From Paludibacteraceae bacterium (lineage in GTDB: Bacteria; Bacteroidota; Bacteroidia; Bacteroidales; Paludibacteraceae): a DNA stretch of 64,000 nt. The notes below the pieces were generated by a model. That model worked only from the letters and a program-made list of their open reading frames with translations, was not told the DNA's origin and ran no database searches. The translations under genes were made by a program, and so were the position numbers. The DNA lies in the NCBI GenBank assembly GCA_905234835.1, contig CAJOIZ010000013.1, forward strand, positions 1 to 64,000, read 5' to 3'. Below are positions 21,612 through 47,720 of this stretch, one piece after another (positions within the stretch are counted from its first letter, which is position 1; every line of letters begins with the position of its first letter).

Positions 21612-21660
21612 AACTATTCTAATTGCACTTACTGGTAAATGCACATAAAATAAAAACGCA

Positions 21661-26680: not shown

Positions 26681-29600
26681 ATGAAAAGAATCAAGTACTT
26701 ATTCCTTTCGTTCCTGCTGATGGCGGGAATGGGAGTTCAGGGGCAGCAGTTGCCTGACCCGCATTTTGAGGACTGGTCGGACTCGTTTGACGGCAATGCC
26801 CAGCCGAAGGACTGGCACGGCAGCAACGTGTCGCAGATGGGTTTCAAGTTCACGTTCCTCTACAAGAAAGACGGTCGCTCGGGCAGTTGCGCCTATGTGA
26901 CGAACCAGGAGGTCGGCGCGTTTGGCGTGAAAGAAAAGGCTCCGGGCTATTTCAGCTTAGGCAAGGCTTGGAGTGCGATAGAAGGTGTCGATACGAAGAC
27001 GGGAACGGGTGGCACGGAAGGCGGCATCAGTTTCAAGTACCGTCCCGACACGTTGTCGGTGTGGATCAAGCGCACAGGCAGCGGTGCCACTGGCGAGGAC
27101 TTCAACATCGTGTTCTATTCGTGGCAGGGTACGAGCAAGGGTACGAGTTACCGTTCGAAAGGAGGTTCGTGCAAGAGTTCGACCCACTCGGACGAAGAGT
27201 GCGATATACGCCAGACGATGAACGGCAACTCATGCAACACATCGGTGCAGGCGAAGCAGGTGGCTGAAGGTTGGCATCGCGAACGCAAGCAATACGCCCA
27301 ATGGACCAACATCAAGGTGCCGATTTATTACCTCAATGATGTCACGCCGGAGAAGGTGAACGTCATTTTCTCGGCGGGTAATGCCCCGAACGCCTTTGAC
27401 AATTCGGGCATCACGGCGGGCAACGACCTGTACGTGGACGATGTGGAACTGATTTATTCCTGCAAGATACAGAAGTTGTATATCGACGGAGTGGAGTGGA
27501 ACGGTTTCAATCCGGACACGGAGGCAGAGCAGGTATATTCGCTCGGCGAAGGGGCTACGGCGGTGCCGGACATCTTTGCCATGCGCGGAGCGGGTTCGCT
27601 GACGAACTCGCAGAACAAGACAGGGACCTTCCCTGGCCGCCGTCTGTCAAGCGACGAGCTGACTATCAAGAAAGGTGCGGTGGGTGAAGTGACAACCCTG
27701 ACGGTGAAGTCGGGCGACGGTCAGAAGACGATGACCTACCACATCAAGTTCGTGAAGCAGGCTTCGACGAACGCCTACTTGGCGGGTATCAAGGTGAACG
27801 GCAAGGACTACGAGGGCTTCAACGCTTATTCCAACGAGACGGAAATAACGTTGGACTACGGAACGACGGCTGTTCCCGATATCGAACCTGTCGGCGCGGA
27901 TGCCGGTCAGACTTACGAAGTAGTCAAAGCGAAGACGCTTGGCGATGCGACGACCATCAAAGTGACGGCTGCTGACGGAAAAACGACACGCACCTACACG
28001 TTCCGATTCAAGGTAGGTGAACTGTCCGACAATACGTTGAAGGACATCCTGATTGACGGCGTTTCGGTGCCTGACTTCTCGCCACAGCAACTCAATTACA
28101 CGGTGTCATTGCCCTTGTCAACCACTGCCGTTCCCGAAGTGAAGGCGGTGTCTGCATACAATGAGGGCGACCAGACGATTGTGTATGAGGCTCCCGCGAA
28201 GATGGAGAACAACTGCCAGTACAAGATTAAGGTCAGCACGAAGGGCAATCCTGTGCCGAAGACCTATGTCATCACCTTCAAACTGGAGGCTTCGTCAATC
28301 ACGTATCTGACGAGCATCACGTTGGACGGCAAGCTGATTGAGGGTTTTGACAAGAGCAAGTACGTTTATGACGTGACCCTGCCTATGGGAAGCACCGCTA
28401 TTCCTGTCATCGGATATGAGAAAGGCGATCCCGAGCAGACGGTGACGCTGAACGGGACGGACGTGAACGGAACAACGGTCATCACGGTGAAGGCGGCTAA
28501 CGGCTCGCAGGCGGTGTACAAGATTAACTTTACCACTCCGCAGTCGGAGAACACGCTCTTGAAGGCAATCTATATTAACGGCAGTCTTGTGGAAGGTTTC
28601 GTTTCCACAAAGAGCATGTACAACGTGACACTGCCTGTCGGCTCGAGTTCCGACAATTTCCCTGCTATCACGTGGGAGACGCTGGACAATTTCCAGACAG
28701 TGGAACTGATAAAGGGAAATATTCCGGGTACAACTCGCCTTGTCGTTACGGCAGGCAACGGCGCAACGGCGCAGTACCAACTCGTTTTCACTGTCGAGAA
28801 AGACGATGCCAATCACCTCAACATGATTTATGTTGACGGCAAAGAGTTGCCGGGCTTTGATAAGGATGTGCTGTCTTATACCTATACCGTAAGTCCTACT
28901 GCCACGGTTCTTCCTACCGTAACCTACGAGCGCGGAAGCGAGAACGAGAAAGTGACGGAGCAGAAACCTTCCGGTCTGACGGGTGACTATCTGCTGAATG
29001 TCCGTTCGCAGAAAGGGCAGACACGTACATACACCATCACGTTCACGCAGAACCTGTCCGCTAATGCTAATCTGAAGATGATACGTCTTGATGGCAAGGA
29101 CCTCGAAGGCTTTAGCCCGGCCAAGTACAACTATACTTGTACACTGCCCGTCGGCACGACCACGCTGCCCGAAATCACCTGCGAGACACAGGAGGAGGGA
29201 CAGAAAACGGCTGTCGTACGTCAGGGTGACGACTATGTTATCACCGTAACTGCGCAGGACGGAAAGACCAAAAGCACCTACCGTGTGTCGTTCACCATCC
29301 AGCAGGCGGAGAACACCCTCTTGGAGGCTATTTATTTAAACGGCGAACTGTTGGATGGATTCGAGCCTGGTACCACGGTTTATACGATTACTTTGCCTGT
29401 AGGCTCCACGGACAGCGATTTCCCGACCATCACATGGAAGACATCGGACGAGTATCAGAAGGTGGAGATGACCACCGGCGGCATCAACGGAACGACACGT
29501 CTGCTGGTAACAGCGGGCAATGGGGCGACCGGGCAGTACCAGCTCCAGTTCAGTGTGGCACAGGACGAAGCGAACTACCTCAATATGATATACATTGACG

Positions 29601-32600
29601 GAAAGGAACTGGCTGGCTTCGACAAGGAGACGCTCAATTACACCTATACCTTGAGCTCCGATGCCACAGCCCTTCCCGCCGTGACCTATGACCAGGGTAG
29701 TGCATACCAGAAAGTGACGGAAAAGAAACCGGCTGACCTGACGGGCGACTATACACTCACTGTCCGTCCGCAAAAAGGCCAGACCCGTACCTATACTATT
29801 ACCTTTACGCAGAGTGTGTCCGCCAATGCCAATCTGAAGATGATACGCCTTGACGGCAAAGACCTTGAAGACTTCAGCCCCACGCGGTACACTTATACAT
29901 ATACGTTGCCCGTAGGAACCACGACGCTGCCCGAAGTGACGTATGAACAGCAGGAAGCGGCGCAGAAAGTGGTGGCGGTTCGGCAAGGCGATGACTACAT
30001 CCTTACTGTCATTGCGCAGGACGGAACGACCAAGAACACATACAAGGTGTCGTTCACCGTTCAGCAAGCCGCGAACACGCTCCTTGAGGCAATCTACCTG
30101 AATGGAAAGCTCATTGACGGGTTTGAAGGAACGAAGACGGTCTATACCGTCACGTTGCCCGTGGGCTCGACAGAGAAGGATTTCCCGACTATCACGTGGA
30201 AGACAACCGATGAGTACCAGAAAGTGGAGATGACCACCGGCGGCATCAATGGTACGACACGCATTTTCGTAACCGCCGGCAATGGAGCGACTGCCCAGTA
30301 CCAACTCATCTTCTCGGTTGCGGAAGACGAAACGAACCACCTCAATATGATTTATATTGACGGCAAGGAAATCCCCGGTTTTGACAAGGAGACCCTTACC
30401 TATACATATATGTTGGGTTCGGATGTTACTGCTCTGCCTTCCGTTACCTACGACCAGGGGAGTGAGTATCAGAAAGTGACAGAAAACAAACCTTCTGGAC
30501 TGACGGGCAACTACACGATTACCGTCCGTCCGCAGAAAGGGCAGTCCCGTACATATACCATTACCTTCACGCAGGACCTGTCCGTCAATGCCTTCCTGAA
30601 GATGATTAGTATTGACGGCGTGGATATGGAAGAGTTCAGCAGCGACCGATTCAACTACACTGTTACACTGCCCGTAGGAACGTCCGTTCTGCCCGAAGTT
30701 ACTTGCGAGAAGCAGGAAGAAGCGCAGAAAGTGGTGTTGGTACGCCAGGGTAACGCATATATCATCACGGTGATAGCCCAGGACGGAACGACCAAGAATA
30801 CCTACAAGGTGACGTTCAACATTCTCCAGTCGGAGAACACTCTCTTGCAGGCTATCTACCTTAACGGTACGCTTGTGGAGGGCTTCGTTCCCGCTACCAA
30901 CGTCTATTATATCACCTTGCCTGTTGGTACAACCGATAGTGATTTCCCGACCATCACGTGGGAGACAACCGATGAGTACCAGAAAGTGGAGATGAACGCT
31001 GGTGGTGTCAACGGTACGACGCGCATCTTCGTTACGGCGGATGACGGGGCTACTGCCCAATACCAGCTCATATTCTCTGTCCTGCAGGACGAAACCGACT
31101 ACCTCAATATGATTTATATTGACGGTAAGCCGCTGTCCGGCTTCGACAAGGATATACTTGCCTATTCGTATCCGCTGACTTCTTCGGCAACTGTCCTTCC
31201 CGATGTTACATACGACATGGGAAGCCCCTACCAGAAGGTGACCGTGCGTAAACCCGATGGCTTGACGGGTGATTATGTGCTCACTGTTCGCCCGCAAAGA
31301 GGCCCGGTACGTACTTATACCGTTACGTTCACACAGGATTTGTCTGCCAATGCTAATCTGAAGATGATCCGTCTCAACGGCGTGGACTTGGAAGGCTTTG
31401 ACGCAACGCAATACACCTATACCTGTACGTTGCCTGTCGGAACCGTTACGCTGCCCGAAGTTACCTATGAACAACAGGAAGAAACACAGAAAGTGGTGGC
31501 TGTGCGCCAGGGCAATGACTACCTTATTACCGTTAAGGCACAGGATGGTCAGACGGTCAACACCTATCACATATCGTTCACTATCCTCCAGTCCGACAAC
31601 GCCTTCCTCAAGATGATATATTTGGACGGCGCACCGCTTGCAGGATTTGAGCAGACCGTTTTCCATTATACCTATACGCTTACGTCTGCCACTTGTCCGG
31701 TTATCACGGTGGACAAAGGCGACGAAGTACAGCAGGTAACCATCGCGGCTCCCTATGCTGACGGTACGGCGCAGATAGTGGTACGCCCCCAGACGGGTAC
31801 CTCTAACACCTATACCATTACGTTTGCCTCGACGTTCGTTCCGTCTGTGCTTCTCAAGGGCATTAACTTGGACGGCACGCCGATGGCGGAATTCCGGCCT
31901 GACCAAAAGACTTATACTATTCCGATGACGACGGATGCCCTGCCTGAGGTGACGGCAGTTACCGAAGAAGGGCAGACCGTGCAGATACTCACTTCTGGCA
32001 ACACGGTGACTGTCTTTGTACAGAGTGGCGATTTGACTGGCAGGTACGACCTGACATTCACGCGCACCGTTTCTTCGGACTGCACGCTTAAGTCGATTCT
32101 GCTTGACGGTATAGCCCTTGCAGGCTTCTCGCCCGATGTCTATACCTACAAGCATACAATGGCGGTCGGCAGCACGATGCCCGAAGTAACATACGAGCGG
32201 AACGAGGTGCACCAGACCGTCCATAAGGGACAGACAGGTGATGCCACCGTGCAACTCATCGTCATTGCAGAGGACGGCAAGACCACAGCTACATACACTA
32301 TCCTCTTTGACATTCCCGCAGATAACGACACGCGCCTCAAGAACATCATCCTTGAGGGGAAAACGGACTTCGTGTACGATGAGGACAATGACTACTACAT
32401 GGTATATGAGGAAGAAGGAGTCTCGTTGCCTGCTATCCGTATTGAGACCAAACCCGGTCAGACAGCGATGATTACCACCGTCGGTCCTGACGAACAACGC
32501 ATCGATGTGCGTGCCGCAGACGGCGTAACGATGGGGTATTATACTATTTTATACATCCGTCTTCGCTCCAACAACGTTCTGTTGAAAGACATACAGATTG

Positions 32601-35600
32601 AGGGCGTGTCACTGGAAGGGTTTGACCCTGCCATCGCTGACTATACGTACACGTTGCCGTGGCGCACAGAGGTTGTACCTTCCATCCAGCCTATCGGTAT
32701 GCTCCCCACGCAAACCATCACCACCAAGCGTAGCAGTGTCAACGGAAAGACGGTTATTACCGTTCTTGCACCCGATGGCATGGCTACCGGCGAGTACACC
32801 GTTTCCTTCCCTGTGGTTAAGTCTGACAACACCGAATTGTCCGACATCTCTTTGCCTTTCAATCCGGAACTGCAACTTGAGCCGGCGTTCAATACCGAAG
32901 TAACCGACTATGAAGTGTTCCTGCCTTACGGCTTTGACACCGTACCCGCTGTGCACTATCAGAAAGTCCTTCGCGAACAGTCTGTTCAACAGGTTATCCG
33001 CGGCTTGAATGAGACTTCCGAAATCATTGTTACGGCGGAGAACGGAGACATGCGTACCTATAAGTTGAAGTTCACTGTCAAAGACCCGACGGAAGAGAAC
33101 CTGCTGACACTCCTGCGTATTGTGGAAACGAATGACACGCTGCTCGGTAAGGTCAAAGAAGTGTTTGACAAGACCAAACGTGACTTCACCGCCAACCTGC
33201 CGTTCGGCAGCCGCTCAATGACGGTTGAATACAAGAAGTCCTACGGCACACAGACTGTATTTATAGAGAGCGGCGGCATTCTGGATGTTACCCGCGTAAC
33301 TGCCCAGTCCAATGTGAAAGGCGTGGATGACGAAGTATATACCATTACGCCTAAGGTGGACCCCAGAGACCCTGCCGTACTGACAGACATCAAGGTGAAC
33401 GGCAAAACGATTGACGGTTTCGACCCCGAGCAGTTCTCATACATAGTTAATGTGAAGAATGTACCTGTGATTGACTATACGTTGAACGAGGGCGCTTCCA
33501 TCAACTACACTCCTTCCAGCAAGCACTGGCAAGCGACTATCACCTACGGCACACGGGTAAACACCTACAATATCTGGTTCTACTTCGAGGATGACGTAGT
33601 ACCGAATATGGACTTTGAGGAATGGGAGAATGCTATGACGACCACCTCTGCCCGTAAACCGAAGGGATGGAATGTGCTGGCGGATTTTGCTCCGGCTTAT
33701 ACATACGCTTTTGCCTTTACATTTACCCCTGGTGAGGAAGTGCAACAGGATGGTTCGAACTCTGTCGCCTATTTGCATACGCAGTACAACACTGCGCCTC
33801 TCGCAGGATACGTACCGGGTTATATGACGCTTGGAACCATTGATTATGTTTACGGGCGTTTTGGTAGTAGTTCTTTCTCCGTGAGGGGCGGTATTACGTT
33901 CCGTAACACACCGGATGAGATGTCCGTCCGCTTCAAAAACGACAAGGTCAACAATAACTCCCGCATTCTCTATAAACTCAATGGTAGCGGAGGAGAAAAA
34001 ACGCTATTGCAGGAAGAGGGCACGACGAGTGGCTATGTGACGCGTACGTTGAATCTGGCGGAAGCGAACGCAGTAGCGAACGAACCGACCCAGTTGAATA
34101 TCGTGTTTAACTCTTTCGACTCCGAGTCTGGCAAGAACGGTACGGCAGGCAGCGAGGCGCAGATGTATGTCGATTGGCTCCGTCTCTCGTTCAACCACAC
34201 CCTGACAGGCTTGACCGTAAACGGTATTCCAGCTATGCTGACGGGCAACGACTTTACGGTTACCCTGTCCGATCCCGAGGCGATAGAGGTTCCTCAACTG
34301 ACCTTTACCGGCGAGGTGGCTGACCAGGCGCAGACCGTGACATGGACGGCAGAAACCAACAGCGGCGAGTACGGCGTCCGCACCGCCACCATTCGCAACT
34401 TCGCGGAGAACGGCACGGACTATACGGACTATACGTTGGAGGTGAAGCGTCCGCTCGCTACCGTCAATACACTGGCAGATATACTTATCGGAGGCAAACT
34501 CCTCAAAGACTTCAAGTCGGAGGTAACAGATTATACAATTACACTTACGCCTTCGGATGTCCTGCCCGACATTGACGCGCACACCACCAGTTCGCGTGCC
34601 ACACTCTCGACCACCATTACGCATGACGAGATAACGCTCACCGTTACCCCCGAGTATGGCGCAGCTGAGACTTACACAGTGCATATCAATTGGGCTTTGG
34701 ATAGCAACACTACTCTCAAGTCAATCACCGCTTCCAAAGGCGCTATCGTTCCCGATTTCGACCCAGATACACGGGACTACACCATTGTGGCGGATACGAT
34801 GCCTGACTTCTTCTTTGTCAAAGGACATACATGGCAGACCGTAACCGCTGCCAACGGCGTTCTGACCGTCAAAGCTGAGAGCGGCGACGAAGATGAGTAC
34901 CGCATCACTCGCATACCCGAGGAGCACACTACCACTGCTCAGCTGAAAGACATCAGTCTTGACAGCAAGCCGCTGGCAGGGTTCAGCTCCGATGTCTATG
35001 AGTACCACCCCGCGGAAACACCCGTTTATGTCCTTTACCATCAGATTGACAACCGCGACTCGCTCGTCTTTATACAGGAAGAGACAGGTATGACCTTCCA
35101 CCTCTACGGTTCGCCGGCTGAGATGAAACATACCTACCGCATCGTATATCCGACCGACTATTCGGCAGAGACCAGTCTGAAGAACATCTTTGTTGACGGT
35201 CTGCCGCTGGAAGGCTTTGGTCCGGACAAGTACGACTACACGCTCGCTACTGACGATGCCGTTATCATCTCCGTAGAAAAGATGGAAGACGCGCAGACAC
35301 TGGATATCAGCGAAGCGAACGGTGTCTATACTATCCTCGTTACGGCGGAAGACGGAGTCTCTACTGCCACCTACACCCTTGCCATCGTACCCGATCTAAG
35401 TGGCGAATCGCAGTTGGCGATGATCTATGCTGACGGCACGGCGTTGGAAGGCTTCCGCTCCGATTCGACGTACTACATCATTACGCTCCCCGCACCTGCC
35501 GCAAAGACTATTGAACCGCTCCTGCCCGTCATCACGTACGAACGCAAGCAGGCACAGCAGCAAGTCGAGGTGCAGACTGCGCCGATGGGACAGTCAACCT

Positions 35601-38600
35601 TCATCAATGTCACGGCGGAGAATGGCGGAAAAACGACCTACGAGTTGCTTATCCAGGCCGAACCCAGCCATAACGCATACTTGACGGGTATTGTTGTGAA
35701 CGGCACCCCTGTTGAACGGTTCGATTTCCAACGCTTCCACTATTCGACACAGGCGCTTGTCAGCAAGTGTACTGTTGAATGGGCTTCTGAGGATAATTTC
35801 CAGACCGTTACCTTAATCGAGACGGAATACACGGACCGCACGGCATACACGCTTCACGTTGTTGCCCAGGACGGTGTAACGATGAACGACTACCAGGTGG
35901 AGATCTTCCTGAAGACTGTTTCCGGCAATACGGAACTGAGCGACATCCTGCTTAACGGTGTTACGATGGACAAGTTTGAGACAGAACTTAATCCCGGATT
36001 GGCGTTCAGCTTGAGCAATACGATGTATCGTATCAACCTGCCTGCTGCGATGACCACTCTGCCGCAAGTCTCCGCACGACTCAAAGAAGAGGGACAGACA
36101 GTGGACGTTACCTATTCGGACGACCAGGTGCTCATTACTGTTACGGCGAGAGACGGCATCTCCAAACGCGTTTACACGCTTGATTTCAAGCGCGCACTCT
36201 CGTCAGATGCCACGTTGGATATGATTTACCTCAACGGCGAAGAGTTGCAAGGATTCGATCCGGATATGTCCGGCTATTCAGTCGCTCTGCCCGAAGGTGT
36301 TGCGGCGTTGCCTTATGTGACGGCTCTCACCAAAGAGACGCAGACTGCCGTTACTACACAGGCGACCGCCAAGACCCTGCGCGCCACCGTATTCGTTACA
36401 GCCCAGGACGGCACGACAACCCGACTCTATACCATCGACTTCACGCTTTCGCTCAGTGACAATGCTGACCTGAAGATGCTCTATCTTGATGGCGAACCGC
36501 TCACATACGAACAGAACGGGGCGATACAGACCTTCTCGCCTGCCGTCCATATCTACACCATCACGCTGCCGGTCGGCACCGAACTCTTCCCCGAACTGAC
36601 GTGGGAGAAGGACGATAAGCTGCAGACAGTGGCGAAGACCGTCTTGACGAAAACTGGCGACCGCAAGAGCGAACAGGTAACTGTTACTGCTGCCAACGGC
36701 CGTCAGAGCAGTTATACCGTTAACTTCGAGATTCAGTTGTCCGACAATACGCTGCTTGACAACATCATCATTGACAACCGTCCGCTTGCAGGATTTACGG
36801 CTGAACAGACAGAGTACTTCTATCCTGTTCCGTCTTCGCAGGCCGAACTGCCTAAGGTTGAATATGAGGCAGCCGACAAGTACCAGGTTATCGAAACGGA
36901 GATAGTTGATGATCAGATAGCGGGTACGTTCGGCAAGAAGGTGCTGATTACTGTTACCGCCCAGAACAAACAGAGTAGTGTTTATACTATCCACTTCCCG
37001 TTGAATCTCTCTTCCGATGTGATGCTGGATATGATCTATCTTGACGGCGAGGAGTTGGCCGGCTTCGATCCCGGCACGTTCTACTATTCTGTTGTACTGA
37101 AGGAAGGCGTTACGCGTCTGCCCGATGTGATGCCGCTGAACAAGACCACACAGACCGTTGTGACCACTCAGGCGACCGACAAGACGATGCGTGCCACGAT
37201 CCTTGTCACTGCCGAAAGCGGACTGACGCAGACCTACACTATTGACTTCGCCTTTACTCTGAACGACAACATCGACCTCCAAATGCTCTACCTTGACGGC
37301 GAACAACTCACCTACGTGGAGGACGACAAGACGCTCACGTTCACGCCTGAGGTGCATATCTATACGATTACCTTGCCGGTTGGTACGGCATCCTTCCCCG
37401 ACCTCACATGGGATCTGAGCGATATGTCTCAGCAAGTGGTAAAGACTGTTTTGTCAGAGACTGCCGTAAGCAAGACCGAACAGGTAACCGTCATTGCCGC
37501 AAGTGGCAGACAGAGCACCTATACCGTTAACTATGAGATAACGCTCTCCGATAACACCCTTCTGGATATCGTCATCATCGACAACCGGCCTCTGTCCGAA
37601 TTCAAAGCCGAACAGACGGAGTACTTCTATACGCTGCCCAAAGGACAGACCAAACTGCCTAAGGTGGAATATGTTGCCGGTGATAACTACCAGACCATCA
37701 GTCGTGACACCTTGCCGGATCCGATTGCGGGTACTCTTGGCGAGAAGATTACACTCACTGTCACTGCGCAGAACGGTCAGAGTCGGGTATATACCTTCCA
37801 CTTCACGCAGAACCTCTCTGACGATGTGACGCTGGATATGATATACCTTGATGGAACGGAAATGGAAGGATTTGCCCCGACTACGTTCTACTACTCTGTT
37901 GTACTGAAGGAAGGTGTTACGCGTCTGCCTGATGTGATGCCTCTCAACAAGAGCACACAGACCGTTGTGACCACCCAGGCGACCGACAAGACCTTGCGTG
38001 CTACCATCGTGGTTACTGCCGAGAACGGACAGACACAGACGTACACCATCGACTTCACGCTCACGCTGAACGACAACACCGACCTCTTGATGCTCTACCT
38101 TGACGGCGAACAACTGACCTACACGCAGGACGACAAGACACTGACCTTCACGCCTGAAGTGCATATCTATACGATCACCCTGCCTGTCGGCACCGAACAC
38201 TTCCCCGACCTCACGTGGGACCTCGCCGACAAGTCGCAGAAAGTGACGCAAACAGTTCTGACAGAGACAGCCAATCTCAAGAGCGAACAGCTCATTGTTA
38301 CCGCTGCCACTGGCAGACAAGGTATCTACACCGTCAATTACGAGATACGCTTGTCCGACAACACCTCGCTCAATAACATCATTGTTGACAACCGTCCGCT
38401 TGCCGGATTCAGCGCAGAGCAGACCGAGTATTTCTATCCTGTTCAGTCGGGTGAGACCGTACTGCCCAAAGTGGAATACGAAGCGGGTGACAAGTACCAG
38501 GTTATCCGTCAGGACACCCTTCAGGACCAGATAACGGGTATGAAGACGCTCGGTCAGAAGGTAACGCTCACTGTTGCCGCACAGAACGGCATGACTCGTG

Positions 38601-40909
38601 TCTATACCGTTCATTTCGTGATGAATCTGTCCTCGGATGTAACGCTGGATATGATTTACCTTGACGGCACCAACTTGGAAGGCTTTGTTCCGACTACGTT
38701 CTTCTATTCGGTGGTTCTGGCAGAAGGTGTTACTCGTTTGCCGGATGTGCAGCCGGGCTTCAAGACAGGTCAGGATGTACAGACCACACAGGCCACCGAT
38801 GAGACGATGCGTGCTACCCTCCTCGTGAAGGCGGAAGACGGCATTACTCAGGCAGAATACACAGTTGTCTTCTCTCTCAACGTGAACAGCAATACGGAGT
38901 TGAAGATGATGTATCTGGACGGCGAGCCTCTTACCTACGAACAGGGTGAGCAAACGTTTGTTTTCACGCCCTCTGTCCGCAGTTACACCATCAAACTGCC
39001 TGTCGGAACGACTGCTTTCCCGAATCTGACGTGGGAGATGGGCGACAGCTCGCAGCGTGTGAACAAGACCGTCCTCTCGGAAACCGCCACGCGCAAGAGC
39101 GAACAGGTGGTTGTCACTGCCCAGAACGGCAGTCAGGGCGTCTATACGGTCACTTACGAGATTCTGCTGAGCGAGAACACGCAATTGGAGAGCATCATCG
39201 TGGACAACCGCCCGTTGAGCGACTTCCAATACGATAAGACGGAGTACTTCTACACGGTTGCTTCCGCTACTTCGCCGCTGCCCAAGGTCGAATACGAAAC
39301 GGCTGACAAGTACCAGGTTGTTCGGATGGACACGTTGGACGACCAGATCAAGGGAATGAAACTGCTCGGCAAGAAGATTACCATCACCGTTACGGCGCAG
39401 AATCAGGCAAGCCGTGTTTATACTATTCACTTCCCTGTTGCGCTGTCTGGCGAATCGCAGATTGACATGATTTATGTGGAAGGCGAACCGCTCGAAGGCT
39501 TTGACAAGGATGTCTATTCCTACACCTATACGGTACCTTACAACGGAACGGACCAGCACCAGATGCCCAATGTCACTGTCAGCAAGAAACTCAATACGCA
39601 GAACGTGACATATACGCAGAAGGGTGATTCTATCATGGTTATCCACGTGATGGCGGAGGACGGCATCCATGCCGAAGACTACACTATCACCTTTATCTAT
39701 GGCAAGTCGCCTGACACGGCGTTGATGGACATCCTGTTGGACGGACAGTCGTATCCGGAGTTCAATGCGGACATCTACAACTACGAGGTTCACCTCTTCG
39801 ACGATGCTACGATGCCTGTTGTTGAATGGATTAAGGGCAATCCCGACCAGCAGCTCAACGAGCAGGAGGATGATGCTGAGATAGACGGCAAACGCTACGT
39901 AACGCTCTCCTGCGAAGTCATTGCGCCCGACGAGGAAACCCGTGCGACCTACAGCATTGTCTTCGCCTTCATCAGGAACGCGCAGGACACTCTGCCTGTT
40001 GTGGTGCGCATGGATTCGTTGCTGGTACGCGGCGAACTTGTCAGCCGCAAGAACGGCTTTGACCACAACTTCCATGCCGATACGTTCGTCTATCAGATGA
40101 CCCCGTACCCGTTGGAGACGCCCGAAGAGGAGTTCTTCACAGTCGAGGACGTGCGCTATGTGACGGCTGATACGAGAGTACGGGCGGCGATGGAGTCCGA
40201 CGACAGGTTCAGTCCGCAGGACGGTACGCTCATCGAGCGCGTTATCCACATCACGCTCTTCAGCACCGTTGTTGGTGACACGGCGAATGCGCGCTACGAC
40301 CTCGTACAGCGTATCGACCTCAGCCACGACAGCACCGTGATAGCCATTCTGCTGGACGATGAGCCGTTGGCGGAGTTCGATCCCGATGTGCACTATTATC
40401 AGATTCCGATAGTAGGCAAGATACCTGGCGTTACCGTCATTGCCAACAACCCGTATGCGCAGACATCCGTACTGCCTGACGGCGACTCGCGTATCATCAC
40501 CTGCGTTTCGCAGTACGCTGGCATCTTTGACCCGAGCAACAAGAACACCTACACCATTGAGTTCATCGAGTCGCCTATTGACCAGGCGGCACGTATCGAA
40601 CCCAATGACGTGATGGTTAAGTACATTCCGGGTTCAACGCAGATTGCTGTTGCCTGCATCCGCAAGGACGCGCAGATTGCAGTCTATTCGGCGGACGGAC
40701 ACTTGCTCTTCTACCGCGCATTGCAGGCTATCGACCCGAGATATGCTATTGTGGCAACGGACGCCAACGGACAGGACTGCTTCATTGACGTGACTGACCT
40801 CTCGCAGTGCACTGTTATCACGCTTGACCCGCATACGCTTTACTTCTATACCATCTATGAGAGCGGCAAGCGCAAAGTCACTTCGGGCAAACTGCTGTTC
40901 GTACAATAA
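26681..40909 (+). CDS. giant secreted protein with two PCMD domains and about 48 cadherin-like domains
   Basis: 4,742 residues. Signal peptide 1-21 (MKRIKYLFLSFLLMAGMGVQG). Residues about 24-265 and 2308-2503 are two related PCMD-like domains (both have DFE.W or HFEDW starts, a PGY segment, GGI.F...PD..SV, and a closing YVDD/YVDW strand). After each runs a chain of about 80-residue beta-sandwich repeats (L..I.ldG..l.GF.....Y...lP.g...P.v.......q.v......V.a.dG....Y.i.F), matching the cadherin-like PF12733 type: 24 after the first and about 24 after the second. Residues 624-1639 and 3176-4257 show three-domain higher-order repeats, each four-fold. The C-terminus (about 4640-4742, VYSADGHLL...GKRKVTSGKLLFVQ) looks like a type IX secretion sorting domain. 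Probably a long surface fibre or adhesin; ligand unknown. A small lipoprotein gene follows. Confidence 0.88.
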   Translation: MKRIKYLFLSFLLMAGMGVQGQQLPDPHFEDWSDSFDGNAQPKDWHGSNVSQMGFKFTFLYKKDGRSGSCAYVTNQEVGAFGVKEKAPGYFSLGKAWSAIEGVDTKTGTGGTEGGISFKYRPDTLSVWIKRTGSGATGEDFNIVFYSWQGTSKGTSYRSKGGSCKSSTHSDEECDIRQTMNGNSCNTSVQAKQVAEGWHRERKQYAQWTNIKVPIYYLNDVTPEKVNVIFSAGNAPNAFDNSGITAGNDLYVDDVELIYSCKIQKLYIDGVEWNGFNPDTEAEQVYSLGEGATAVPDIFAMRGAGSLTNSQNKTGTFPGRRLSSDELTIKKGAVGEVTTLTVKSGDGQKTMTYHIKFVKQASTNAYLAGIKVNGKDYEGFNAYSNETEITLDYGTTAVPDIEPVGADAGQTYEVVKAKTLGDATTIKVTAADGKTTRTYTFRFKVGELSDNTLKDILIDGVSVPDFSPQQLNYTVSLPLSTTAVPEVKAVSAYNEGDQTIVYEAPAKMENNCQYKIKVSTKGNPVPKTYVITFKLEASSITYLTSITLDGKLIEGFDKSKYVYDVTLPMGSTAIPVIGYEKGDPEQTVTLNGTDVNGTTVITVKAANGSQAVYKINFTTPQSENTLLKAIYINGSLVEGFVSTKSMYNVTLPVGSSSDNFPAITWETLDNFQTVELIKGNIPGTTRLVVTAGNGATAQYQLVFTVEKDDANHLNMIYVDGKELPGFDKDVLSYTYTVSPTATVLPTVTYERGSENEKVTEQKPSGLTGDYLLNVRSQKGQTRTYTITFTQNLSANANLKMIRLDGKDLEGFSPAKYNYTCTLPVGTTTLPEITCETQEEGQKTAVVRQGDDYVITVTAQDGKTKSTYRVSFTIQQAENTLLEAIYLNGELLDGFEPGTTVYTITLPVGSTDSDFPTITWKTSDEYQKVEMTTGGINGTTRLLVTAGNGATGQYQLQFSVAQDEANYLNMIYIDGKELAGFDKETLNYTYTLSSDATALPAVTYDQGSAYQKVTEKKPADLTGDYTLTVRPQKGQTRTYTITFTQSVSANANLKMIRLDGKDLEDFSPTRYTYTYTLPVGTTTLPEVTYEQQEAAQKVVAVRQGDDYILTVIAQDGTTKNTYKVSFTVQQAANTLLEAIYLNGKLIDGFEGTKTVYTVTLPVGSTEKDFPTITWKTTDEYQKVEMTTGGINGTTRIFVTAGNGATAQYQLIFSVAEDETNHLNMIYIDGKEIPGFDKETLTYTYMLGSDVTALPSVTYDQGSEYQKVTENKPSGLTGNYTITVRPQKGQSRTYTITFTQDLSVNAFLKMISIDGVDMEEFSSDRFNYTVTLPVGTSVLPEVTCEKQEEAQKVVLVRQGNAYIITVIAQDGTTKNTYKVTFNILQSENTLLQAIYLNGTLVEGFVPATNVYYITLPVGTTDSDFPTITWETTDEYQKVEMNAGGVNGTTRIFVTADDGATAQYQLIFSVLQDETDYLNMIYIDGKPLSGFDKDILAYSYPLTSSATVLPDVTYDMGSPYQKVTVRKPDGLTGDYVLTVRPQRGPVRTYTVTFTQDLSANANLKMIRLNGVDLEGFDATQYTYTCTLPVGTVTLPEVTYEQQEETQKVVAVRQGNDYLITVKAQDGQTVNTYHISFTILQSDNAFLKMIYLDGAPLAGFEQTVFHYTYTLTSATCPVITVDKGDEVQQVTIAAPYADGTAQIVVRPQTGTSNTYTITFASTFVPSVLLKGINLDGTPMAEFRPDQKTYTIPMTTDALPEVTAVTEEGQTVQILTSGNTVTVFVQSGDLTGRYDLTFTRTVSSDCTLKSILLDGIALAGFSPDVYTYKHTMAVGSTMPEVTYERNEVHQTVHKGQTGDATVQLIVIAEDGKTTATYTILFDIPADNDTRLKNIILEGKTDFVYDEDNDYYMVYEEEGVSLPAIRIETKPGQTAMITTVGPDEQRIDVRAADGVTMGYYTILYIRLRSNNVLLKDIQIEGVSLEGFDPAIADYTYTLPWRTEVVPSIQPIGMLPTQTITTKRSSVNGKTVITVLAPDGMATGEYTVSFPVVKSDNTELSDISLPFNPELQLEPAFNTEVTDYEVFLPYGFDTVPAVHYQKVLREQSVQQVIRGLNETSEIIVTAENGDMRTYKLKFTVKDPTEENLLTLLRIVETNDTLLGKVKEVFDKTKRDFTANLPFGSRSMTVEYKKSYGTQTVFIESGGILDVTRVTAQSNVKGVDDEVYTITPKVDPRDPAVLTDIKVNGKTIDGFDPEQFSYIVNVKNVPVIDYTLNEGASINYTPSSKHWQATITYGTRVNTYNIWFYFEDDVVPNMDFEEWENAMTTTSARKPKGWNVLADFAPAYTYAFAFTFTPGEEVQQDGSNSVAYLHTQYNTAPLAGYVPGYMTLGTIDYVYGRFGSSSFSVRGGITFRNTPDEMSVRFKNDKVNNNSRILYKLNGSGGEKTLLQEEGTTSGYVTRTLNLAEANAVANEPTQLNIVFNSFDSESGKNGTAGSEAQMYVDWLRLSFNHTLTGLTVNGIPAMLTGNDFTVTLSDPEAIEVPQLTFTGEVADQAQTVTWTAETNSGEYGVRTATIRNFAENGTDYTDYTLEVKRPLATVNTLADILIGGKLLKDFKSEVTDYTITLTPSDVLPDIDAHTTSSRATLSTTITHDEITLTVTPEYGAAETYTVHINWALDSNTTLKSITASKGAIVPDFDPDTRDYTIVADTMPDFFFVKGHTWQTVTAANGVLTVKAESGDEDEYRITRIPEEHTTTAQLKDISLDSKPLAGFSSDVYEYHPAETPVYVLYHQIDNRDSLVFIQEETGMTFHLYGSPAEMKHTYRIVYPTDYSAETSLKNIFVDGLPLEGFGPDKYDYTLATDDAVIISVEKMEDAQTLDISEANGVYTILVTAEDGVSTATYTLAIVPDLSGESQLAMIYADGTALEGFRSDSTYYIITLPAPAAKTIEPLLPVITYERKQAQQQVEVQTAPMGQSTFINVTAENGGKTTYELLIQAEPSHNAYLTGIVVNGTPVERFDFQRFHYSTQALVSKCTVEWASEDNFQTVTLIETEYTDRTAYTLHVVAQDGVTMNDYQVEIFLKTVSGNTELSDILLNGVTMDKFETELNPGLAFSLSNTMYRINLPAAMTTLPQVSARLKEEGQTVDVTYSDDQVLITVTARDGISKRVYTLDFKRALSSDATLDMIYLNGEELQGFDPDMSGYSVALPEGVAALPYVTALTKETQTAVTTQATAKTLRATVFVTAQDGTTTRLYTIDFTLSLSDNADLKMLYLDGEPLTYEQNGAIQTFSPAVHIYTITLPVGTELFPELTWEKDDKLQTVAKTVLTKTGDRKSEQVTVTAANGRQSSYTVNFEIQLSDNTLLDNIIIDNRPLAGFTAEQTEYFYPVPSSQAELPKVEYEAADKYQVIETEIVDDQIAGTFGKKVLITVTAQNKQSSVYTIHFPLNLSSDVMLDMIYLDGEELAGFDPGTFYYSVVLKEGVTRLPDVMPLNKTTQTVVTTQATDKTMRATILVTAESGLTQTYTIDFAFTLNDNIDLQMLYLDGEQLTYVEDDKTLTFTPEVHIYTITLPVGTASFPDLTWDLSDMSQQVVKTVLSETAVSKTEQVTVIAASGRQSTYTVNYEITLSDNTLLDIVIIDNRPLSEFKAEQTEYFYTLPKGQTKLPKVEYVAGDNYQTISRDTLPDPIAGTLGEKITLTVTAQNGQSRVYTFHFTQNLSDDVTLDMIYLDGTEMEGFAPTTFYYSVVLKEGVTRLPDVMPLNKSTQTVVTTQATDKTLRATIVVTAENGQTQTYTIDFTLTLNDNTDLLMLYLDGEQLTYTQDDKTLTFTPEVHIYTITLPVGTEHFPDLTWDLADKSQKVTQTVLTETANLKSEQLIVTAATGRQGIYTVNYEIRLSDNTSLNNIIVDNRPLAGFSAEQTEYFYPVQSGETVLPKVEYEAGDKYQVIRQDTLQDQITGMKTLGQKVTLTVAAQNGMTRVYTVHFVMNLSSDVTLDMIYLDGTNLEGFVPTTFFYSVVLAEGVTRLPDVQPGFKTGQDVQTTQATDETMRATLLVKAEDGITQAEYTVVFSLNVNSNTELKMMYLDGEPLTYEQGEQTFVFTPSVRSYTIKLPVGTTAFPNLTWEMGDSSQRVNKTVLSETATRKSEQVVVTAQNGSQGVYTVTYEILLSENTQLESIIVDNRPLSDFQYDKTEYFYTVASATSPLPKVEYETADKYQVVRMDTLDDQIKGMKLLGKKITITVTAQNQASRVYTIHFPVALSGESQIDMIYVEGEPLEGFDKDVYSYTYTVPYNGTDQHQMPNVTVSKKLNTQNVTYTQKGDSIMVIHVMAEDGIHAEDYTITFIYGKSPDTALMDILLDGQSYPEFNADIYNYEVHLFDDATMPVVEWIKGNPDQQLNEQEDDAEIDGKRYVTLSCEVIAPDEETRATYSIVFAFIRNAQDTLPVVVRMDSLLVRGELVSRKNGFDHNFHADTFVYQMTPYPLETPEEEFFTVEDVRYVTADTRVRAAMESDDRFSPQDGTLIERVIHITLFSTVVGDTANARYDLVQRIDLSHDSTVIAILLDDEPLAEFDPDVHYYQIPIVGKIPGVTVIANNPYAQTSVLPDGDSRIITCVSQYAGIFDPSNKNTYTIEFIESPIDQAARIEPNDVMVKYIPGSTQIAVACIRKDAQIAVYSADGHLLFYRALQAIDPRYAIVATDANGQDCFIDVTDLSQCTVITLDPHTLYFYTIYESGKRKVTSGKLLFVQ
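28550..31597 (+). repeat. higher-order repeat I: four 762-bp units (three domains each)
   Basis: The unit boundaries fall at 28550, 29312, 30074 and 30836, ending at 31597. Each unit is exactly 762 bp (254 residues) and encodes three different cadherin-like domains in the fixed order A (LL.AIYLNG), B (LNMIYIDGKEL.GFDKE), C (LKMIRLDGKDLE.F). Units 2 to 4 are closer to each other than to unit 1. Confidence 0.9.
36206..39451 (+). repeat. higher-order repeat II: four 807-816-bp units (three domains each)
   Basis: Boundaries at 36206, 37016, 37823 and 38636, ending at 39451, give units of 810, 807, 813 and 816 bp. Each encodes domains in the order D (LDMIYLDGEEL.GFDP), E (L.MLYLDGE.LTY) and F (IIIDNRPL..F..EQTEYFY). 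The sequence is distinct from block I. Confidence 0.9.
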
Positions 40910-40915
40910 ACCGTA

Positions 40916-40951
40916 GCCGTCTCCGTCCTCCTCATGGGGGATGGGGACGGC
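40916..40951 (+). other. GC-rich hairpin between the giant gene and the lipoprotein gene
   Basis: GCCGTCTCC (40916-40924) pairs with GGGGACGGC (40943-40951), with an inner CCTCC/GGGGG stem. There is no T run, so it is more likely to adjust read-through, RNA stability or translation of the next gene than to terminate. Confidence 0.55.
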
Positions 40952-40970
40952 GTTTAACTGCTTTACTACA

Positions 40971-41309
40971 ATGAAAACAAGACACATCCTTTCTCTCGCA
41001 TTGTTCACCCTTGTCCTGTCTGCTTGTCAGAAGGACATAACCGATATGGGCAATATCGACAGCCCGGTGCTGACGCTTACTGAAGACACCGTAACAATGC
41101 ACGCGGGCGAAACGCATCAGCTCCGTCTCTCCTATAGCATCTCTGGTGTGGAGTGGTCTTCCGAGCACGATACCGTTGCCTCTGTGGACATCAGGGGATT
41201 AGTCACCGCACACAGACAAGGCACAACGCTGGTCACTGCCACACGCGAATCGGGCGATGACATCCTCGTCACGAGGTCGGCGTCATGTCTCATTCAAGTC
41301 AAGGAATAA
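40971..41309 (+). CDS. small lipoprotein with a BIG2-like domain
   Basis: 112 residues from the ATG at 40971. The signal peptide ends in the lipobox LSAC, so the protein is lipid-anchored. The rest is one bacterial Ig-like (BIG_2) domain: LTEDTVTMHAGETHQLRLSY...VEWSSEHDTVASVDIRGLVTAHRQGTTLVTA. It lies 61 bp after the giant gene and overlaps no upstream reading frame. It may help anchor or present the giant protein, by position only. Confidence 0.82.
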   Translation: MKTRHILSLALFTLVLSACQKDITDMGNIDSPVLTLTEDTVTMHAGETHQLRLSYSISGVEWSSEHDTVASVDIRGLVTAHRQGTTLVTATRESGDDILVTRSASCLIQVKE

Positions 41310-41830: not shown

Positions 41831-41918
41831 TTCCCATCTCTTTCCCATCTATTCCCCATCTCCTTCCCATAGTCTCCCAATAGTATTCCCACAGTCCCCC
41901 GTATCCCCATAGTCTCTT
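41831..41918 (+). repeat. 11-bp tandem repeat (TTCCCATNTNT-like) x8
   Basis: Eight consecutive 11-bp units start at 41831 and every 11 bp to 41908, pyrimidine-rich, increasingly diverged to the right. Confidence 0.8.
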
Positions 41919-41920
41919 TA

Positions 41921-41986
41921 CTATACGGATACTATAGGGATACTATATGGATAGCATAGGAGTATTATAGGAATAGTATAGGGAAA
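41921..41986 (+). repeat. 11-bp tandem repeat (CTATAGGGATA-like) x6
   Basis: Six units start at 41921, 41932, 41943, 41954, 41965 and 41976. The consensus is close to the reverse complement of the last units of the preceding array, so the two together form a long imperfect palindrome centred near 41915. Confidence 0.8.
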
Positions 41987-42040
41987 TCTCCCATGTTCAG
42001 CTCTCGCTCTTCTCCCCGCGAGTAACCATACAACCAACCA

Positions 42041-42180
42041 CCATTCACTCCCCAACACGCAGTAATCAACACGCAGTCCCCAATAGCCGAAGGCTGCCAA
42101 CACGTAGTAATCAACACGTAGTCACTAACACGCAGTCACCAACATTCACTCCCCAACAGCGAAGCCTCCAAACAGCAAGC
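42041..42180 (-). repeat. 14-bp repeat family, inverted copy
   Basis: On the minus strand, about nine units of 14-16 bp alternate GACTGCGTGTTG, TACTACGTGTTG and GAGTGAATGTTG forms. Same family as 14243-14298 and 22017-22103. Confidence 0.8.
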
Positions 42181-42186
42181 AACATT

Positions 42187-42230
42187 ATGTGATTACTATG
42201 TGATTATTATGTGATTATTATGTGATAACT
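42187..42230 (+). repeat. 11-bp tandem repeat ATGTGATTATT x4
   Basis: The units are 42187-42197, 42198-42208, 42209-42219 and 42220-42230. Confidence 0.9.
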
Positions 42231-42258
42231 CTGTTTTTACTATGTTTGTCAGCAAACC

Positions 42259-42485
42259 GCACCGTTATCTGACCATCCCCGCACCGTTATCTGACCATCC
42301 CCGCACCGTTATCTGACCGTCCCCACACCGTTATCCGACCGTCCCCACACCGTTATCTGACCGTCCCCACACCGTTATCCGACCGTCCCCGCACCGTTAT
42401 CCGACCATACCCGCACCGTTATCTGACCGTCCCCGCCCCGTTATCTGACCATCCCCACACCGTTATCCGACCGTTCCCACACCGT
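42259..42485 (+). repeat. 22-bp tandem repeat x10.3
   Basis: Ten full units of exactly 22 bp (GCACCGTTATCTGACCATCC-like) run from 42259 to 42478, plus a 7-bp partial. Variation is confined to a few positions (G/A at 1, T/C at 12, A/G at 17). There are no spacers, so it is not CRISPR. Confidence 0.95.
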
Positions 42486-45059: not shown

Positions 45060-47720
45060 ATGAAGCGATACAGAAATGGGCAGCGGATGTTGCTTGTATT
45101 CCTGTTAGTGCTGACAGGGATGGTAGGACAGGTTTGGGAACCAGTCTATGGGCAGAAACTGAGTAAAGAACAGTTGCGGGCGTTGGGCGATTCGCTGACG
45201 GAGTACGCCCATGCACGTGCGGACGTGATGAAAGTGACGGTGAAGAGCTGTCAGCAGCGGGGGAAAGCGATTGACATTCGGACAAACTGCACGCTCTCGT
45301 GCCTGTCCATGAGTGAGGAGGACCTGAAAGAACTGCGGGGCAAAGTCAGCGAGTGGGTGCGCGGTGACCGACAGGGACGCGTGTCTATCTACAGCGATAA
45401 CCGCGAACTGGGCGAACTGATTACATCCCGCTACCGCCCGCGCAAGGAGGCGGACAAACACAAGGTCGCTGATGCGGCACTGGTGACTTGTCCCGATGCG
45501 GCTTACGAGACAAAGGACGGTTTGCAGGGGAAGAACATCGCCTTGTGGGCAAGCCACGGCATGTTCTGCCGCATACGCGACAACCGATGGATGTGGCAGC
45601 GTGCTCGGCTGTGGACCACAGTGGAGGACCTGCTGACGTTCTCCTTTACAAGTGGTTACTTGGTGCCGATGCTGGAGCAGGCGGGAGCCGTCGTACTCCA
45701 GCCCCGTGAGCGGGATATCCATCGCGAGGAACGGGTGGCATACAGCAGCGGACAGTCGCAGTCATTGGCGATGCCGGTGGCGGACAGGTATGCGCTGTAT
45801 ATCCGTTATGCTCGGGGACAGCAGAATAGTCCGCAAGCGGTCTATACGGTATGCCATCAGGGTGTACGGACGCGTGTGTCGGTAAATCAGCAGACAGGCG
45901 GAGGACAGTGGCTGTACATAGGTACGTATGCTTTCGGACCGGACTCGTTGCGTAATTATCTCACCGTTGAGGACGGCACGGGCAAACGACTGCACGTGTC
46001 GCACGAGGGCGTGAAGATAGGTGGCGGAGTAGGTGTGAGCGGCTATCCCCGCTATATGGAAGGAGCGCGATACTGGTTGGCGTACAATGGTCTGCCCGAT
46101 TCGGTTTATACCTACGAGAAACGTGAGAGTCAGTATCTGGACGACCTCGTGAGCCGTGGACGGTGGGTCAACTATATGCAGGAGCAGTTGCATGTGCCGG
46201 TTCACATGGCGTTGGCTGTCCATACGGATGCGGGTGTGCGTGAAGGGGATTCGATTGTGGGGACGCTCGCTATCTATTCGGAGAAGGACAAGGACGGCAA
46301 GACGCGTTTCCGCCGTGGCGGGAACCGTTTGATAAGCAGAGACCTGGCGGACTATGTGCAGACGCAGGTGGTCGAAGACATGCGCCGGACGCTGTGTCCC
46401 AACTGGGCAAGACGCGAACTGAAGGACGGCGTATATGCCGAGTCGCGCATACCGCGTGTGCCGACTCTGTTAGTGGAGATGCTGAGCCACCAGAACCAGA
46501 ACGATATGCGCTACGGCTTGGACGGACGGGCGAAGTTCGTTATCTGCCGCGCCATCTACAAAGGAGTGCTGCGTTTCCTGCATGAGCAGGACGGCACACC
46601 GTACATAGTCCAGCCGCTGCCGGTAAGGGATTTTGCCGTCAGCCGTGTGGCGGACTGCGATTCGGTTTGTCTGACGTGGAAGAGCCGTTACGACAGTCTG
46701 GAGACAACTGCCGTGCCCTCTTACTATGTGGTTTACACCCGCGAGGAAGGTAGTGACTGGGACAATGGTATGCGTGTGGACTGTGAGCGTGTCACGCTGC
46801 TGTTGGAACGGGGCAAACGGTACGATTTCATTGTTCGTGCGGGCAACTCGGGTGGCGTGAGTATGGTGTCGGAGCAGTTGAGTGCGTATATCGACCCGCA
46901 GGACAGAAAGCGGGCGGTAATCATCAATGGTTTTACACGCATTTCGGCACCGGAGATGATGGAGGGCGACAGCCTGAAGGGTGGCATTGTCCCGCGTTCG
47001 CTGGCTATTCCTTATGGGGTGGATGTGTCATATATCGGCGAGCAGATTGATTTTGTGCGCAGTCACCCGTGGGTGAGCGATGACGAATGTGGCTACGGGA
47101 TGTGCGCGAACGACCATGCAGGTATGCAGGTGGTCGGCAATACGTTTGACTATCCCGCAATGCACGGCAGGGTGCTGCAGGGGATGGGATATTCGTATGT
47201 GAGTCGGTCATTGGGTTCGGTAGAGAGCCTGCCGCAGGTCGATCTGGTGGATGTCATACTGGGCAAGGAGAAAGAGGGTATCGGCGTGCTGACGAAGGCG
47301 CAGCGGGATGCGGTGTCGAAGTACCTGCAAGGCGGAGGCAGACTGCTACTAAGCGGGTCGTATATAGGTTCTGGCGCGGACGGTGGCGATGCGCAGGTAT
47401 GGGCGCGGACGGTGCTTCATTACATGCCCGCGACAGGCAAGGCGACACGTAGCGGCGAGATAGAACTGCTTTTCCCTGGAAACGAAAGGACTGTCTGTCA
47501 GCTGTTCACGGAGCCGAACGAGATACGTATCGCCTGTGAGTGGCCGGACGCGATAGAGCCGGATGGATTGAGTCGGCGCGTAGGGCGTTATGCGGATAGT
47601 TATCTGACGGCGGGTGTGGCTACGGGACACAGCATACTCGTACTGCCGTTCATGCCGGAGAGCGTCTGCGAGTTCGAGACGCTGTACGGACAGTGCGTCC
47701 GTTTCTTGGAAATGAAATAA
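45060..47720 (+). CDS. secreted amidase-like protein with a golvesin-like domain
   Basis: 886 residues. Signal peptide 1-31 (cleavage after PVYG). An amidase_3-like zinc hydrolase fold (N-acetylmuramoyl-L-alanine amidase) is split by an insert. Candidate zinc ligands are His in LWASHGMF, Glu in TTVEDLLT and His in ALAVHTDAG, with the catalytic Glu in LLVEMLSHQNQ. The insert (about 240-330, YALYIRYARG...RVSVNQQTGGGQWLYIGTYAF) resembles a golvesin C-terminal-like beta domain. A fibronectin III-like domain (about 520-615) and a C-terminal glutaminase-like fold follow. It probably acts on peptidoglycan or another envelope polymer. It is followed 14 bp later by rlmD. Confidence 0.82.
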   Translation: MKRYRNGQRMLLVFLLVLTGMVGQVWEPVYGQKLSKEQLRALGDSLTEYAHARADVMKVTVKSCQQRGKAIDIRTNCTLSCLSMSEEDLKELRGKVSEWVRGDRQGRVSIYSDNRELGELITSRYRPRKEADKHKVADAALVTCPDAAYETKDGLQGKNIALWASHGMFCRIRDNRWMWQRARLWTTVEDLLTFSFTSGYLVPMLEQAGAVVLQPRERDIHREERVAYSSGQSQSLAMPVADRYALYIRYARGQQNSPQAVYTVCHQGVRTRVSVNQQTGGGQWLYIGTYAFGPDSLRNYLTVEDGTGKRLHVSHEGVKIGGGVGVSGYPRYMEGARYWLAYNGLPDSVYTYEKRESQYLDDLVSRGRWVNYMQEQLHVPVHMALAVHTDAGVREGDSIVGTLAIYSEKDKDGKTRFRRGGNRLISRDLADYVQTQVVEDMRRTLCPNWARRELKDGVYAESRIPRVPTLLVEMLSHQNQNDMRYGLDGRAKFVICRAIYKGVLRFLHEQDGTPYIVQPLPVRDFAVSRVADCDSVCLTWKSRYDSLETTAVPSYYVVYTREEGSDWDNGMRVDCERVTLLLERGKRYDFIVRAGNSGGVSMVSEQLSAYIDPQDRKRAVIINGFTRISAPEMMEGDSLKGGIVPRSLAIPYGVDVSYIGEQIDFVRSHPWVSDDECGYGMCANDHAGMQVVGNTFDYPAMHGRVLQGMGYSYVSRSLGSVESLPQVDLVDVILGKEKEGIGVLTKAQRDAVSKYLQGGGRLLLSGSYIGSGADGGDAQVWARTVLHYMPATGKATRSGEIELLFPGNERTVCQLFTEPNEIRIACEWPDAIEPDGLSRRVGRYADSYLTAGVATGHSILVLPFMPESVCEFETLYGQCVRFLEMK

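Follow-up and report, generated by a model that had tools for sequence, protein, structure and literature searches.

The giant protein encoded in the window (the whole 64,000-nucleotide stretch of Paludibacteraceae DNA analyzed here) carries two arms of repeated modules whose numbers are matched and whose expansions lie at mirror positions, and we consider these mirror-matched arms a result worth following up. The protein is probably a surface rod in which one polypeptide folds back on itself so that its arms lie antiparallel; in this reading, we infer the pairing, its occurrence within a single chain, secretion, anchoring, and ligand binding. With a little more reserve, we also favor the fuller proposal that the rod is a self-paired, two-stranded hairpin whose arms evolve in lockstep as mirror images, with insertions of two or three modules being compensated at the facing place such that the register is kept. 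PCMD1, the first PCMD-like domain, would then lie at the base of the rod and the fast-changing PCMD2 at its tip.

A giant gene with two PCMD-like domains and two module arms

The open reading frame (ORF) of the giant gene, which spans positions 26681 to 40909 on the plus strand and encodes 4,742 aa, was confirmed to be real. As described in the earlier note, this single ORF holds two PCMD-like domains and ~48 modules; the two domains proved to be homologous, and each is followed by 24 cadherin-like modules, in agreement with the ~24 proposed. Residues 1 to 21 (26681 to 26743) likely form a signal peptide, judged by eye from the sequence, and are followed by PCMD1 (residues 24 to 262; 26750 to 27466) and the 24 modules of arm 1 (residues 263 to 2300; 27467 to 33580), of which modules 5 to 16 are a three-module block present four times (residues 627 to 1642; 28559 to 31606). 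PCMD2 (residues 2301 to 2520; 33581 to 34240) precedes arm 2 (34241 to 40591), whose 24 modules, one of them divergent, end at residue 4637. Modules 9 to 20 of arm 2, which are modules 5 to 16 when counted from the C-terminal end, are also a three-module block present four times (residues 3179 to 4260; 36215 to 39460). The chain ends in a domain of ~105 aa (40592 to 40906), a tentative candidate for a type IX secretion system (T9SS) sorting tail. All of these features lie on the plus strand.

A search with the Pfam models PF13201 and PF12733, which the earlier note had proposed, was positive in part. PCMD1 scored 34.7 bits against PF13201 over residues 29 to 258 (gathering cutoff, 28; 34.2 bits in the genome search), and the cadherin-like model PF12733 reached 34 bits in two stretches of the giant protein relative to a gathering cutoff of 24.2, with the remaining modules being assigned using a profile derived from the protein's own sequence. 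In contrast, the PCMD2 piece gave no PF13201 match, remaining below the Pfam gathering cutoff. PCMD2 has a PCMD-like fold: it is homologous to PCMD1 and shares the fold of solved PCMD-type proteins, and carbohydrate-binding modules are among the fold neighbors that rank below the PCMD-type structures. Pairwise identity among relatives with 15 modules per arm was 0.62 for PCMD1 and 0.34 for PCMD2, and a conserved PCMD1 with a variable PCMD2 would be expected if PCMD2 were an exposed tip. Sequence searches against solved structures, both with single PCMDs and with profiles, returned nothing firm, and we gave no weight to Foldseek matches to ciliary proteins, cadherins, and Dscam (TM-scores of 0.04 to 0.31). 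An NCBIfam YxeA match above its cutoff was read as a chance beta-strand match, and the PF12733 search of the protein's own genome, which gave no match anywhere, carries no information.

The PCMD-type Bacteroides proteins with solved structures (3hbz, 4het, 3s30, and 4jrl) are chains of 254 to 348 residues, whereas the window protein combines two PCMD copies with 48 modules in its 4,742-aa chain. The same genome encodes a second PCMD protein (G000:C4:29454-30185), a 328-aa frame that scores 64.1 bits against the Pfam PCMD model, higher than the giant protein. In the literature searched, outside which most subscription papers fall, we found no paper on the PCMD domain, the putative carbohydrate metabolism domain, or PF13201, none on cadherin-like domains together with type IX secretion and a giant protein, and nothing on matched repeat arrays within one protein.

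Relatives were found using the N-terminal piece as a query, which had a match in 163 of 300 genomes sampled from the family; the 21 named relatives comprise 8 Paludibacteraceae and 13 other Bacteroidales, with a ruminant host being given in 7 titles. The database proteins are the best 120 of 1,206, 757, and 891 matches from three protein searches. Both PCMDs were present in 320 of the 323 proteins and ORFs screened (280 database proteins, including the window's own, designated P0001, plus ORFs from loci), and because the relatives were selected by PCMD1, this figure bears on PCMD2 alone. Database proteins and loci may partly represent the same gene. Both PCMDs were carried by 111 locus ORFs, of which 4 that reach the end of their stretch (L044, L046, L047, and L141) were dropped; the 107 complete homologous ORFs left, from 105 loci, encode 1,608 to 5,621 aa, measured from stop to stop.

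Matched arm lengths and mirror-placed expansions

When arm 2 was measured from the end of PCMD2 to the C terminus, its length across the 107 complete ORFs equaled 0.997 times that of arm 1 plus 107 aa (r = 0.98), with arm 1 ranging from 502 to 2,512 aa; the standard deviation of the difference between the arms, 53 aa, is less than one module. The 107-aa offset fits the C-terminal domain of ~105 aa, and once 105 aa was subtracted, the arms differed by <85 aa in 103 of the 107 ORFs. Arm lengths were correlated with r = 0.987 in the 24 ORFs outside the main ~15+15 class and with r = 0.34 in the 83 ORFs within it, where length is nearly constant.

Module counts were likewise equal in 97 of the 107 ORFs, from 6+6 up to 29+29, in counts that place divergent modules by arm length (counts from the profile alone show more noise, such as 15/14 or 15/13). 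The equal classes were (15,15) in 76 ORFs, (10,10) in 6, (11,11) in 4, (19,19) in 3, (6,6) and (7,7) in 2 each, and (24,24), (29,29), (20,20), and (9,9) in 1 each; these are not population frequencies, since loci were chosen by frame length and unusual lengths were included deliberately. Six of the 10 unequal ORFs are (14,15), and all of these (L079, L096, L117, L125, L127, and L131) are without module N9 only, that is, the ninth module of arm 1. The other four are L040 (19,20) and L074 (15,14), whose counts are one apart; L048 (13,11), for which a GEVED insertion like that seen in arm 1 of its relative P0133 has probably raised the count, the profile alone counting 11 and 11 in both proteins; and L056 (24,19), a real exception. 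Among 279 database proteins, including the window's own, 260 had equal counts (248 of them 15+15). The 19 unequal ones include P0064, which is without the last modules, and P0172 (29/27). P0172 shares its PCMD1 region with L037 (29/29) and differs from it by one two-module unit in arm 2, a mismatch attributable either to an allele whose arms are unmatched or to a collapsed assembly.

Arm length changed repeatedly, as judged from a tree of 122 proteins rooted at its midpoint. Starting from (15,15), parsimony required 25 shifts between arm classes, one-module differences being counted, and independent contrasts of the two arms gave r = 0.85 with a slope of 0.98 (r = 0.63 without the 10 largest contrasts and 0.46 without the 20 largest). 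When one protein was taken to represent each of 15 lineages that had changed, 14 had exactly equal counts, although a small number of the lineages may go back to a common event; over 300,000 permutations of the 15 representatives, the number of equal pairs averaged 1.8 and never exceeded 9. P0122 (15+15) clusters with P0125 and L036 (24+24) inside P0001, which implies that the state with nine extra modules in each arm was either gained more than once or gained and then lost.

The positions of the added modules were resolved by comparing P0001 with P0122, which is 84% identical to it over the N-terminal 290 residues. Relative to this protein, modules 5 to 7 of arm 1 are present four times in a row in P0001 (modules 5 to 16), and modules 9 to 11 of the 15 in arm 2 are also present four times (modules 9 to 20). 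Given that modules 9 to 11 of 15 are modules 5 to 7 from the C-terminal end, P0001 has gained nine modules in each arm at mirror positions, and its layout is 4+12+8 in arm 1 and 8+12+4 in arm 2. P0125 and L036 exhibit the same expansion pattern. When P0157, the reference chosen by PCMD score, was used in place of P0122 to assign the modules of P0001, no clean order was obtained.

In another lineage, L037 (29+29) carries recent two-module duplications at mirror positions in both arms, with the copies being 87 to 90% identical in modules 10 to 15 of arm 1 and 72 to 98% identical in modules 10 to 15 from the C-terminal end of arm 2. The repeat unit thus matches between the arms of each protein, at two modules in L037 and three in P0001. 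More generally, the pattern of within-arm self-similarity agreed better between arms in mirror order than in the same order in 13 of 14 expanded proteins, which are not independent of one another; the exception, P0156, had no mirror preference (0.13 versus 0.14).

Covariation between the arms followed the same mirror order. We compared column covariation between module i of arm 1 (Ni) and module j of arm 2 (Cj) in 324 proteins of the 15+15 class (Neff, 147) after removing row and column effects. The mean excess was 25.9 for module pairs at i+j=16, relative to 12.5 and 8.4 at sums of 15 and 17. This anti-diagonal signal had a permutation P of 1.5e-5 without N13-15 and C1-3, whose very strong mutual signal was omitted because it could reflect linkage around PCMD2; the permutation assumes that module pairs are exchangeable and does not amount to a phylogenetic null. 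For the same-order diagonal (i=j), P was 0.90. Linkage along the gene depends on j-i rather than on i+j and therefore does not explain the anti-diagonal signal. The result held in an earlier set of 283 proteins (P = 2e-4), in the main cluster of 308 proteins (P = 1.3e-4), after dereplication at 60% to 82 proteins (P = 0.011), and when only the single best residue pair per module pair was used (P = 0.008).

The expected partner ranked first for N1, N2, N3, N4, N6, N12, and N14, 9th for N10, and 11th for N9. Since this is the lowest rank and N9 is the module missing from the (14,15) ORFs, it is perhaps a place of loose pairing. At the level of residues, the excess was modest. In the zone that omits N13-15 and C1-3, 9 of the 60 strongest residue pairs were at i+j=16 (5.0 expected by area), as were 32 of the top 200 (16.6 expected) and 76 of the top 500 (41.5 expected). 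Pairs at sums of 15 to 17 accounted for 18 of the top 60 versus 14.2 expected, a weak signal for single pairs. Mirror symmetry of module conservation was also looked for and was absent (rho, -0.23).

A proposed folded-back rod and its alternatives

If the arms are paired, any gain or loss of modules in one of them has to be answered by an equal change at the mirror position in the other. In the arrangement that we favor, module i of arm 1 would lie antiparallel beside module n+1-i of arm 2, and the rod would be lengthened or shortened as a two-stranded unit. PCMD2 would make the turn and thus form the far tip, and PCMD1 would come back to lie at the base, next to the C-terminal domain, which may serve in type IX sorting. 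The likely use of such a rod would be to hold a variable, putatively carbohydrate-binding head (PCMD2) away from the cell, with the conserved PCMD1 putatively binding something constant near the surface.

Scores from structure prediction lend this arrangement some support. An AlphaFold2 (AF2) model of PCMD2 with five modules on each side (1,026 aa, 89 sequences) had a pLDDT of 90.9 and a pTM of 0.61, compared to a pLDDT of 88.1 and a pTM of 0.36 for a lone-arm control consisting of 12 modules of L042 (997 aa, 76 sequences). These scores fit a defined overall arrangement around PCMD2, although the pTM of 0.61 may owe part of its value to the large central PCMD.

The main rival, which we regard as unlikely, is an antiparallel homodimer in which two extended chains would lie head to tail, arm 1 against arm 2 of the other chain, with the PCMD2s meeting midway, either on the same membrane or in a bridge between cells. 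Equal arms, mirror-placed expansions, and anti-diagonal covariation are predicted equally well by such a dimer. The higher pTM of the single-chain, PCMD2-centered piece weakly favors pairing within a chain, and two chains anchored by their C termini on one cell could not easily lie antiparallel over their full length. An open loop, in which the arms make no contact and the N and C termini have to meet at a base held by PCMD1, would account for the equal lengths and for PCMD1 being the conserved copy; we nevertheless consider it improbable, as it leaves unexplained both the mirror positions with the same unit size and the covariation between individual modules.

A cause at the level of DNA, whereby the similarity of modules N5-7 and C9-11 lets both arms grow through recombination and their match arises incidentally, would include the remnants of the head-to-tail gene fusion that the earlier note had suggested. 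By profile score, N5-N7 and C9-C11 do rank among the modules with the greatest likeness between arms, and the amplification in the window's lineage involves these same modules. However, recombination gives no reason for equal counts in nearly every representative of the changed lineages, and since both arms are read in one direction, a copying mechanism would give same-order rather than mirror placement. Module profiles also carry no trace of a shared order from one arm to the other (i=j, P = 0.89), which argues against both recombination and fusion, and show instead a weak mirror tendency (P = 0.008); we therefore think a DNA-level cause very improbable. Least credible of all is the extended, single-file adhesin of the earlier note, a fiber of 150 to 200 nm with binding heads at its tip and halfway along. 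The domain order agrees with it, and tandem beta modules usually form rods, according to a review of Periscope Proteins (PMC9704523), but a single file gives no reason for the co-scaling, mirror placement, or anti-diagonal covariation, all of which fit arms lying side by side. With the arms side by side, PCMD2 would mark the distal end and PCMD1 would lie close to the C terminus, at about half the extended length; at the earlier figure of ~4 nm per module, the doubled-back rod would measure about 100 nm.

Spectrin heterodimers and alpha-actinin form antiparallel rods of repeats whose lengths must correspond. The proposed folded-back rod resembles them in placing two repeat rods of corresponding length antiparallel, and differs in that their repeats are helical, eukaryotic, and carried on separate chains, whereas those of the window protein are beta modules, probably on one chain with a PCMD at the turn. 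Periscope Proteins (PMC9704523) are bacterial surface rods of highly identical tandem modules in variable number; like them, the window protein is a single chain of tandem beta modules, and its relatives differ in how many they have. The window protein differs from Periscope Proteins in having two arrays per chain, matched and mirror placed, and in varying between species, with 6 to 29 modules per arm and copies that are mostly well diverged. The SprB gliding adhesin of Flavobacterium, which forms filaments, is a large Bacteroidota surface adhesin, as the window protein would be; type IX export of the latter is possible.

Giant repeat proteins are usually drawn in single file, whereas here sequence evolution alone points to a doubled-back rod and to which modules face each other. 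The expected topology would be reversed, the exposed head being a domain in the middle of the chain rather than at the N terminus. The system lends itself to testing, in nature, how whole domains evolve in compensation for one another, and searching single genes for co-scaling, mirror-placed repeat arrays is a general method.

One-PCMD relatives, the C-terminal tail, and neighboring genes

A fusion of two ancestral proteins might have left long homologues with one PCMD, for which the earlier note had proposed a search; none that was convincing was found, leaving the fusion reading unsupported. Of the single-PCMD ORFs read, seven are 361 to 456 aa long with one or two modules, and P0079 (1,719 aa, with hydrolase Pfam domains) was set aside as chimera-like, its end reading as a hydrolase. 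Among 12 further loci with short frames, the frames of L188, L190, L191, L193, and L194 reach the contig end, those of L187, L189, and L192 are adjacent, unjoined part-frames, and L186, L195, L196, and L197 have one PCMD in another or an unclear architecture. Proteins of <0.55 of the query length fell outside the protein searches, so short one-PCMD forms are undersampled. Duplication of the PCMD itself, without fusion of whole proteins, remains as an explanation for the two copies.

In L037 (882-2249), L045, and L046, a short gene encoding a PCMD and one module (369 to 456 aa) immediately precedes the giant gene, and in other genomes it lies on a different contig or in a different place; it is possible that this gene encodes a partner or represents an ancestor of the PCMD unit. 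L062 and L063 each hold tandem paralogues, with a 3.1-kaa copy adjoining a 1.6-kaa (6+6) copy, and L074 holds in tandem a 401-aa PCMD ORF, a 2,642-aa ORF (25 modules, without PCMD1), and a 3,164-aa copy.

A scan of the giant protein's tail with TIGR04183 (T9SS type A) gave no match, and 6 of 39 family tails matched weakly (E values up to 10; best, 0.0038). An hhalign comparison with 12 tails of the same genome gave 47.6% over 16 columns. The genome holds a PorU sortase and 14 TIGR04183 matches, 12 of them above the cutoff, and judged by these sequence matches, type IX export of the giant protein is possible. A match of the tail profile to UspA1 (E = 0.0014 over 31 positions) was given no weight.

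Directly downstream of the giant gene, a small gene (40941 to 41309) encodes a bacterial Ig-like Big_2 domain with a subthreshold lipoprotein-attachment match. It is followed by intergenic tandem-repeat arrays with units of 11 and 22 bp (41831 to 42485), one of which has ~10 copies of 22 bp, and by a gene for an 886-aa protein with Golvesin_C and a subthreshold Amidase_3 match (45060 to 47720). On the other side, a type I restriction R subunit-like gene (17371 to 20106, minus strand) adjoins a YhcG/DUF1016-type nuclease gene (20478 to 21644, minus strand).
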